NCBI GenBank assembly: GCA_028277365.1
Contig: JANQGK010000043.1
Span: forward strand, 1 to 39,148
Direction of reading: 5' to 3'
Length of the DNA: 39,148 bases
From: Halieaceae bacterium
GTDB taxonomy: Bacteria > Pseudomonadota > Gammaproteobacteria > Pseudomonadales > Halieaceae
Below, piece by piece: positions 1 through 3,263 of the stretch. The first letter of the stretch is position 1, and each line of letters starts with the position of its first letter. Position numbers and translations under genes: made by a program. The notes under the pieces were generated by a model. The model was not told where the DNA came from and did no database searches. It saw nothing but the letters and a program-made list of their open reading frames with translations.

Positions 1-1
1 G

Positions 2-109
2 GTGGCCACGCTGATTGCCCCGATTGCGATGGAAGAAGGCCTGCGCTTTGCGATCCGCGAAGGCGGTCGTACGGTGGGCGCCGGCGTCGTCGCCAAGATC
101 ATCGAGTAA
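2..109 (+). CDS. tuf: Elongation factor Tu, C-terminal 35 aa (truncated by window start)
   Basis: Reads [35 protein letters not shown], the characteristic EF-Tu C-terminus. Confidence 0.96.
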
Positions 110-146: not shown

Positions 147-175
147 AAAGCCCCGCACCCGCGGGGCTTTTTTTT
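147..175 (+). terminator. Intrinsic terminator of tuf
   Basis: aaaagccccgcacccgcggggctttttttt: GC-rich stem followed by a T tract. Confidence 0.9.
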
Positions 176-196: not shown

Positions 197-315
197 GCGC
201 GCGCAATGCCCGGGGCGCTTCCGGGACGCGCTAAAAGCATGACGTCCCTGTCTCGCTCGGCTGCGGCCGTCCTGGCCGCAGACGGTCCCGGAAGCGCCCC
301 GGGCACCGCACGCGC
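197..315. repeat. Long hairpin repeat A: 31-nt stem around a ~57-nt core
   Basis: Arms 197-227 and 285-315 are complementary with about 3 mismatches; core contains catgacgtccctgtctcgctcgg, shared with hairpin B. Confidence 0.85.
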
Positions 316-380
316 TCTGCAGGCAGCCCTCCAAACTCAAAACTTCGATTATGAAAGGGGCAGCATTTGGCGTTGAAGCA

Positions 381-502
381 GGGCGCGAGCTGGGTCTACC
401 CCCTCCCCGGACCGTCGACGGCCAGGGACGGCCGTCGCCGAGCGAGACAGGGACGTCATGCTTGTAGCGTGTCCGGGGAGGGGGTAGACCCAGTTCGCGC
501 CC
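381..502. repeat. Long hairpin repeat B: 31-nt stem around a ~60-nt core, inverted relative to A
   Basis: Arms 381-411 and 472-502 are complementary with 1 mismatch; the reverse complement of the core matches the core of A. Confidence 0.85.
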
Positions 503-530: not shown

Positions 531-3263
531 TCAGGCCGGCACCGCTGCTGGTTGCCTGGCGCCGTTGCGCAGTCTGCGTACCAGCTTGTCCGCCTCGATG
601 GCGATGAAGCTGGGGAAGAAACAGGCGAGGATCAGCGGCCACCACTCCACCGGGAAGGCGGCTGTGCGGAACAGGGCGGCGGCTTCCGGTACCAGGGTGG
701 GGATGAAGCGGATCAGCAAGCTCAGCACGATGCCGCCCAGCAGCCAGCCGTTGGAGAACGGGCTGAAGGTGAAAGCTGAGTCGTACACCGAGCGCGCCGA
801 GAGCACGTAGCCGAAATGGGCAAACAGGATGGCCCAGAAGGCCGCGGTCTGGGCCTGGGTCAGCAGCAGGGCGTCAACCAGTTCACCGTCCACCACCGCC
901 GCGGCGCCGAAGTGGTAGTAGATCAGGAATCCCGGGGTGGAAATGGCCAGTCCCAGCAGCACCACGCGCTGCAGGAACAGGGCGTCGATAATATGAGCGC
1001 CTGCGGGTCGCGGCGGTTGCTGTAGCAACCCGCGCTCTTTTTGCTCCATCATCAGTGGCATGGTCAGCAGTACCGAGTCCAGCAGATTGACCCAGAGAAT
1101 CTGCACGGGTTCCAGTACGAAGCGCACGCTGAATAGCGGAATAAAGGCCGCTATCAACACCGCCCCCATGATCAGCAGTGCCTGGGCGGCGTTGGTCGGC
1201 AGTGTATAGAGAATGGCCTTGCGCAGGTTGTTCCAGGCGTGGCGGCCTTCTTCCACGGCGGCGACGATGGTGGCGAAGTTGTCATCCGCCAACACCATGT
1301 CAGAGGATTCCCGCGCCACCTCGGTGCCGCTCTTACCCATTGCCACCCCGATATCCGCGGCTTTCAATGCCGGCGCGTCGTTGACCCCATCGCCGGTCAT
1401 AGCCACCACCTTGTTCAGCTGCTGCAGCGCCTCGGCGATAGCCTTCTTGTGCTCGGGGGCTACCCGTGCGAATACCGAGACCTCGCGCGCCACCTCGCGG
1501 TAGCCCGCCTCATCCAGCGCTGAGAGCTCGGTACCGGTCATGACCCGATCCGCATCGATCCCCAGCTGTCGCGCCACGGCCTGGGCCGTGTCCGGGTGGT
1601 CGCCGGTAATCATCACGGTGCGAATCCCGGCCTGCTTGCACTGGGCGACCGCCTGCACGGCGGACTCCCGCGGCGGGTCGATCATTCCCTGCAGGCCCAC
1701 AAAACAGAGATCGCTCAGGTCGTCCTGGGTGAGTCCACTACAGTCTGCCGGCACCGGCTTGATGGCAAAGGCCAGGGTGCGCAGGGCATCCATGGCAAAA
1801 TCCCGGGCGGTGGCCAGGGCCCGTTCCGGTTCGAAGACGGCGGTATTCCCCGCCGCGTCCAGGGTGGTGCCGCACATGGCGATCACCCGTTCCGGCGCGC
1901 CCTTCACCAGCACGTAACGGCCGCCGGGCATATCCACCAGCACCGCCATGTACTTGGCCGCGGAATCGAAGGGAATTTCCACCAGGCGATGAATGCCGTC
2001 CACCACCAGCTCAGCCTTGGCGCCGGAGATTCGCAGCGCGAGCTCGGTGGGATCACCTGTGCCGCCCTTGCCGCTGAGGTGGGCATTGTTGCAGTGAAAG
2101 CCTGACTCCAGCAGCTTCATCAGCGCCGGCTGCTGCCGGGCGGGTACCGGCCGCTGGTCGCGCAGGAACTGGCCTTCGATGTCGAAACCCACCCCGGTAA
2201 CACTAAAGACCTCTGCGCCGGCGTAGACCCGGGTTACGGTCATTCGGTTTTCTGTCAGCGTACCCGTCTTATCGGAGCAGATCACCGACGTGGCGCCCAG
2301 GGTCTCCGCGGCGGGTAGCTTGCGAATCAATGCCTTGCGGCCGGCCATCACGGTACCGGACAGCGCCAGGATGGAAGTGACCAGCGCCGGCAGCATCTCC
2401 GGAATGGAGGCCACCACCAGCGACACTGCGCCAAGGAAGCTGTAGGAAATGGCGTAGCCCAGGTAGATGCCGAGGCAGAAGTTGAAGCCACCCACCACCA
2501 GAATGGCGCCGATCAGCGTGCGCACGAACTCCTTCATCTTGCGCTGCAGGGGCGTGAGGCCCTGGTCGGCGGATTTCACCAGATCGGCGATGCGCCCAAA
2601 CACGGTATTGGCGCCGGTGCCCACCACGATGCCCCGGGCGGTCCCCCTGGTTACATAGGTGCCGGAGAAGCCCACGTTCCTCTGGTCGCCCGGAACCAGG
2701 TTCTCGCCCTGCAGGGCGTCGATGGTCTTCATCACGGGAATAGACTCCCCGGTGAGGGAGGATTCGTCCACATGCAGGTCGCTGGTTTCGATAAAACGCA
2801 GGTCGGCGGGCACCCGGTCGCCGCTCTCCAGCACCACCAGGTCACCCGGTACCAGCTCCCGCGCGGCGATCCGGCGCTGGTCGCTGTCACGCAGCACCAG
2901 GGCTTCCTGCACCATCATGTTGCGCAGGGCGTCCAACGCCCCCTCGGCCTTGCCTTCCTGCACGAAGCCGAGAATGGCATTCAGCAGCACCACGCTGAGA
3001 ATCACAACGGTGTCGGGCAACATGTGGCTGCCCAGTGCCGACAGCACCCCGGTAACGGTGGCGGTCACCAGCAGGATGATCACCATGGGGTCGGTGAACT
3101 GGCGCAGCAGCCGGAGCCAGGCAGGGGTTTTACGGAACTCGATCTCGTTGGGCCCATGTTCCGCCAGGCGCTGCTGCGCCGCGGAATCGGACAACCCGGT
3201 TTCCCGGGTGTCCAGCAAATCCATGACTTCCTCGGGGGATTTCGCGTACCAGGTTTCTTCCAC
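531..3263 (-). CDS. Cation-transporting P-type ATPase (P2-like), GTG start
   Basis: DKTGTLT phosphorylation motif, TGES, TGDGVNDAPALKAADIGVAMG hinge motif, N-terminal cation-ATPase domain; SD-like aggag before the GTG. Confidence 0.93.
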   Translation of the reverse strand: MEETWYAKSPEEVMDLLDTRETGLSDSAAQQRLAEHGPNEIEFRKTPAWLRLLRQFTDPMVIILLVTATVTGVLSALGSHMLPDTVVILSVVLLNAILGFVQEGKAEGALDALRNMMVQEALVLRDSDQRRIAARELVPGDLVVLESGDRVPADLRFIETSDLHVDESSLTGESIPVMKTIDALQGENLVPGDQRNVGFSGTYVTRGTARGIVVGTGANTVFGRIADLVKSADQGLTPLQRKMKEFVRTLIGAILVVGGFNFCLGIYLGYAISYSFLGAVSLVVASIPEMLPALVTSILALSGTVMAGRKALIRKLPAAETLGATSVICSDKTGTLTENRMTVTRVYAGAEVFSVTGVGFDIEGQFLRDQRPVPARQQPALMKLLESGFHCNNAHLSGKGGTGDPTELALRISGAKAELVVDGIHRLVEIPFDSAAKYMAVLVDMPGGRYVLVKGAPERVIAMCGTTLDAAGNTAVFEPERALATARDFAMDALRTLAFAIKPVPADCSGLTQDDLSDLCFVGLQGMIDPPRESAVQAVAQCKQAGIRTVMITGDHPDTAQAVARQLGIDADRVMTGTELSALDEAGYREVAREVSVFARVAPEHKKAIAEALQQLNKVVAMTGDGVNDAPALKAADIGVAMGKSGTEVARESSDMVLADDNFATIVAAVEEGRHAWNNLRKAILYTLPTNAAQALLIMGAVLIAAFIPLFSVRFVLEPVQILWVNLLDSVLLTMPLMMEQKERGLLQQPPRPAGAHIIDALFLQRVVLLGLAISTPGFLIYYHFGAAAVVDGELVDALLLTQAQTAAFWAILFAHFGYVLSARSVYDSAFTFSPFSNGWLLGGIVLSLLIRFIPTLVPEAAALFRTAAFPVEWWPLILACFFPSFIAIEADKLVRRLRNGARQPAAVPA

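Follow-up and report, generated by a model that had tools for sequence, protein, structure and literature searches.

What is the pair of long inverted hairpins that lies between the 3′ end of a tuf gene and a convergent ATPase gene in the window (the whole 39,148-nt stretch of Halieaceae DNA analyzed here), and what keeps its arms paired? An earlier note had described two inverted long hairpins with a shared core, and the description holds. The arms of hairpin A (197–227 and 285–315) are 31 nt long and 90% complementary, and those of hairpin B (381–412 and 471–502) are 32 nt long and 97% complementary; the cores (218–272 and 426–480) are 89% identical in inverted orientation. Folds on all four strands reach z-scores of −7.9 to −11.5, with 0 of 200 dinucleotide shuffles folding equally well, and the window contains two occurrences of a 27-nt core where none is expected. 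Table 1 gives the layout. The putative tuf terminator is absent from the output of the terminator scan, probably because its stem runs into the A/T tract.

Table 1. Features of the tuf–ATPase interval in the window
Feature	Positions	Strand	Remarks and basis
tuf (EF-Tu), 3′ end	1–109	+	Left neighbor; Pfam PF03143, E 5e-11
Putative intrinsic terminator of tuf	150–175	+	7-bp GC stem with 8 T after it; precedes the unit; sequence
Hairpin A (A-type), TwoAYGGAY-like RNA half	197–315	− (GGA, sense strand)	Arms, fold, model R1
A hairpin 2	235–259	−	GAC-AGGGAC-GTC, loop 244–249; sequence, fold, conservation
A hairpin 1	261–281	−	8-bp stem, loop AGGAC at 269–273; sequence, fold
Spacer separating A and B	316–380 (65 nt)		Weak conservation; conserved promoter not seen
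Hairpin B (B-type), TwoAYGGAY-like RNA half	381–502	+ (GGA, sense strand)	Arms, fold, RF01731, R1
B hairpin 1	416–437	+	8-bp stem, loop AGGGAC at 424–429; sequence, fold
B hairpin 2	440–463	+	GAC-AGGGAC-GTC, loop 449–454; sequence, fold, conservation
P-type cation-transporting ATPase	531–3263	−	Convergent right neighbor; Pfam PF00122, PF00689, PF00690

Positions 197–502 are one copy of a repeat that is dispersed in this genome and throughout its Halieaceae relatives. The genome-wide search with the core that the earlier note called for, made with a 26-nt core and up to three mismatches, finds 33 copies in the 3.88-Mb genome against 0 for a reversed control, mostly in pairs separated by about 200 nt. 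Among named genomes, a scan recovers 61 stretches, nearly all from Halieaceae MAGs and Parahaliea, and one from Mariprofundus erugo. Within a genus set of 74 loci, drawn from the window's genome and three genomes of the same genus and yielding 119 sense hairpins, the sense (GGA) strands face outward—minus, then plus—in all 45 pairs, and in 44 of the 45 one stem is A-type and the other B-type. The stems had been taken as unrelated; this is true of A against B, but A-like stems resemble one another across the genome, as do B-like stems, such that each of two stem types recurs from copy to copy. The suggestion that stems are acquired or exchanged is not supported, given the near-constant pairing of one A with one B and the drift of stems by paired substitutions at fixed sites.

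The description that suits the element best is that of a multicopy TwoAYGGAY RNA (RF01731) arranged as outward-facing twins; the motif was reported by Weinberg 2010 (PMC2864571) and had already been predicted to bind CsrA (PMC4333381). Hairpin B aligns with the full length of the Rfam model on the plus strand at 39.3 bits, slightly under the gathering cut-off of 43 bits, and hairpin A is not among the matches listed; two sister copies in the same genome exceed the cut-off on their sense strands (47.1 and 45.6 bits), as do matches in 15 of the 120 genomes searched at family level, 16 of 369 at class level, and 28 of 399 at phylum level. Model R1 scores hairpin A at 137.3 bits on the minus strand versus 39.5 on the plus, and hairpin B at 137.5 on the plus. 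Because the TwoAYGGAY match on hairpin B is to the plus strand, the functional strand is the reverse complement of the core reported in the earlier note. Folds, model alignment, and loop tallies recover the TwoAYGGAY layout, in which a long outer stem encloses two inner hairpins with AYGGAY-like (here ANGGAY) loops on one strand. However, TwoAYGGAY is catalogued as one stand-alone RNA motif, of Rfam type Cis-reg, whereas here it forms half of an outward twin, with many repeats per genome and two stem types; this organization is new. Outward twins are also present in distant gammaproteobacteria: among neighboring Rfam matches, by our count, the searches at family, class, and phylum level contain 11, 4, and 8 outward pairs, respectively; a single pair faces inward (G021), and there are some clusters with matches in one direction.

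The proposal that the repeat family is selected for structure is strongly supported, by the number of copies and by the behavior of the stems. Standard pairs fill 97.3% of pair cells across the 119 sequences, compared with 79.2% after shuffling, and the covariance test finds two-sided changes in 35 of 49 pairs, a signal that collapses in controls with partners slid by 1–3 columns. Kinship among sequences inflates such counts, and orthologous sites were therefore compared as well: between species, 165 pair changes are compensatory, 71 are one-sided with pairing kept, and 79 are broken. The mismatches that the stems tolerate are informative about strand. With arms aligned under strand-blind scoring, and counting cells rather than independent events, the GGA strand of the genus set carries 306 G·U mismatches and 20 A·C, with 109 hairpins having more G·U and 1 having fewer; the ratio is 37:3 in other genera, 29:2 in a further distant set, and 16:7 in fourteen hairpins of other families, the last not significant by count alone. 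Some G·U pairs in hairpin 2 are nearly fixed. A cruciform, or purely mutational repair, would be expected to yield G·U and A·C equally, and the asymmetry therefore reflects a constraint on a single strand; replication-strand bias cannot explain it, since within one unit A lies on the minus strand and B on the plus. As read from these alignments, selection is on a single strand in both halves, and that strand is most simply RNA.

Conservation is highest in the GGA loops and the hairpin-2 region, and the hairpin-2 loop has the form ANGGAY in almost all copies. GGA is present in the hairpin-2 loop of all 117 parsed hairpins (AGGGAT 48, ATGGAC 38, AGGGAC 29, AAGGAC 1, GTGGAT 1), and among 23 orthologous pairs the second (N) position of this loop differs 15 times and the sixth (Y) 8 times, the GGA never. 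ACGAC takes the place of the hairpin-2 GGA loop in several distant copies and occurs in hairpin 1 of one A hairpin of the window's genome. Of 95 cases, 71 have the hairpin-2 context ACANGGAYGT, and 87 separate the two GGA motifs by 22 nt. The CsrA SELEX consensus is RUACARGGAUGU, presented in hairpin loops, and CsrA bridges sites 10–63 nt apart with an optimum above 18 (PMC7652899); a loop spacing of about 22 nt, as seen in these sequences, fits one CsrA dimer. The presence of GGA in hairpin loops at a CsrA-bridging distance is shared with CsrB/CsrC and RsmX/Y/Z (clan CL00106), and in Rfam TwoAYGGAY has the clan number of RsmY. The CsrB/CsrC and RsmX/Y/Z sRNAs each come from a single locus with its own promoter and contain many GGA motifs. 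Unlike such sponges, the element has two motifs per hairpin and many loci, and a promoter was not found; internal divergent promoters in the spacer were considered and rejected, since a conserved promoter was looked for there and not seen. One csrA gene is present in the window's genome, and csrA also occurs in all 30 other element-bearing genomes, which says little because CsrA is very common in the class. A genome-wide search with the RsmZ model detected no family member in six Halieaceae genomes, and, with no match found, a canonical RsmZ was set aside as this genome's sponge.

Taken together, it is probable that the locus is one of many dispersed twin TwoAYGGAY-type repeats whose halves are read through from neighboring genes, each binding a CsrA/RsmA dimer as a decoy or as a 3′-end site. 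Each half would consist of a long closing stem, free in sequence and held to pairing, around two short GGA-loop hairpins; with the functional strands directed outward on opposite strands, read-through from either flanking gene would yield one functional hairpin, and each hairpin RNA would bind one dimer. The copies jointly would act as a spread-out CsrA decoy or supply CsrA sites at the 3′ ends of neighboring transcripts. Transcription, CsrA binding, and titration are what we infer here, and the genome may thus carry dozens of built-in CsrA decoys. Several observations count against a decoy. The unit lies beyond the probable tuf terminator, with no conserved promoter seen in its spacer; unpaired hairpins in tandem gene contexts, at about 2 sense versus 3 antisense, show no sense preference; and the ACGAC loops noted above depart from GGA. 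There is a parallel in the RrA/RrB/RrF RNAs of Escherichia coli, which interact with CsrA and arise by terminator read-through (PMC8144298): there as here, where we propose it behind tuf, the source is read-through past the terminator of a very highly expressed operon. Those RNAs differ in having only three near-identical copies, in rRNA operons, and the likeness is drawn without any claim of sequence relation.

A bolder version, which we offer tentatively as a possibility, is that the element is a self-propagating or domesticated repeat that spreads CsrA decoy RNA. Its twin build would ensure that transcription from either side always yields one working decoy, and dozens of dispersed read-through decoys would set the level of free CsrA, instead of or besides a dedicated CsrB-type sRNA. 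TwoAYGGAY has been a structured RNA of unassigned function since 2010, and the literature found holds no follow-up of the CsrA prediction. A dispersed twin with a strand-specific pairing constraint would link interspersed repeats to CsrA control, both sides of which are directly testable, and moves the question from which sRNA gene is responsible to why there are dozens of copies per genome.

The strongest competing account, though an unlikely one, is that of a non-autonomous mobile DNA element (MITE- or REPIN-like) whose GGA-loop hairpins would be recognized in single-stranded DNA by a transposase acting in trans. It would explain the many scattered copies of a twin inverted unit bounded by imperfect inverted ends and the patchy spread over gammaproteobacteria, and G·T wobble tolerated in single-stranded DNA could also produce a strand bias; the close match of the loops to the CsrA rule does not favor it. 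REPINs, BIMEs, and the intergenic families of Pseudomonas fluorescens (PMC2718517, PMC3116915) are likewise dispersed paired inverted hairpins with a tail-to-tail bias. However, the element measures about 305 bp, versus 20–40 bp for REP units, keeps its pairing with one-strand wobble, has GGA loops, and does not need a RAYT. The link to a RAYT that the earlier note proposed looking for finds no backing, and a RAYT/REPIN origin was rejected: four of the eight genomes with the element (G008, G047, G021, and G482) yielded no Y1 transposase, and the one in the window's genome (L204) has no element copy nearby. Nor was the element found on any plasmid, phage, or viral contig.

The history of individual sites bears on the same account. 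No sites common between genera were recognized in the limited sample, as mobility would predict, but about 17 sites of the window's genome are common to the genus, and the one difference resolved in detail is decay rather than new insertion: L197 (G000:C348:12600-13750) is a deletion relic of a unit that is a full twin at the same site in G008 (L199). Since such a relic occurs in the window's genome itself, no one site can be essential, which also counts against the decoy reading. Two candidate sites were inspected for fresh insertion beside an intact empty site; neither showed one, the first being the deletion relic and the second a contig break. At the orthologous tuf loci (L144, L145, L146), G008 has precisely lost hairpin A, and its remaining hairpin B shows paired substitutions and lacks one base in each arm, while in G032 the whole unit is inverted in place alongside a remnant of an older B arm; a second in-place inversion distinguishes L085 from L018. 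These two inversions also speak for mobility, which is plausible over long times. Recombination is at work on the units, through in-place inversion, loss of single hairpins, and homogenization of cores, but there is no sign that it makes the stems. The element at L099 joins flanks that in the window's genome belong to two separate sites (L006 and L012), which suggests a rearrangement between copies. An IS30-type transposase gene (HTH_38 and rve; L089:4690-5841) interrupts the loop of hairpin 1 in a B-type copy; a larger autonomous element was considered and rejected, this insertion into a loop being the only case of a twin with an internal gene. Four other copies (L025, L029, L015, L111) carry about 15 extra nucleotides in the hairpin-1 region, a recurrent insertion spot.

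Gene context raises a further alternative, that the unit is a bidirectional end-of-gene structure—a stabilizer, a terminator, or a BIME-like gyrase or nucleoid site—in which the loops are incidental. By home-made gene calling, 20 of the twins with both neighbors called lie between convergent genes, 14 between tandem genes, and none between divergent genes, and repeat families in P. fluorescens show the same tail-to-tail bias (PMC2718517). Tolerance of insertion alone would give this bias, however, and such a structure would need only the stem, yet it is the GGA loops and the hairpin-2 region that are best conserved. The window copy has no T tract 3′ of its stems, and at tuf a probable terminator already precedes the unit; we regard this explanation as improbable.

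Long near-perfect palindromes are prone to self-templated correction, and cores are more alike within units than between them (the two halves have the same stem-2 type in 35 of 37 units, a figure matched in 0 of 1000 permutations), which suggests gene conversion. An account without selection, in which such correction pairs the arms and gene conversion keeps the cores alike, is nevertheless very improbable, as it predicts neither the roughly 15:1 excess of G·U over A·C on one strand, nor the near-fixed G·U pairs of hairpin 2, nor an unchanging GGA beside freely changing loop positions.

Other small repeats accompany the unit at tuf. L144 and L146 carry a short repeat (CTTCAGCTCCGTCCCCCTCCCA..CTACGGAGC) between tuf and the terminator that is not seen at this locus in the other two species. 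A second small palindromic repeat (CATTCCCGCG..CGGGAATC) occupies positions 121–142 of the window, and near-identical stretches occur in L145 and L089.
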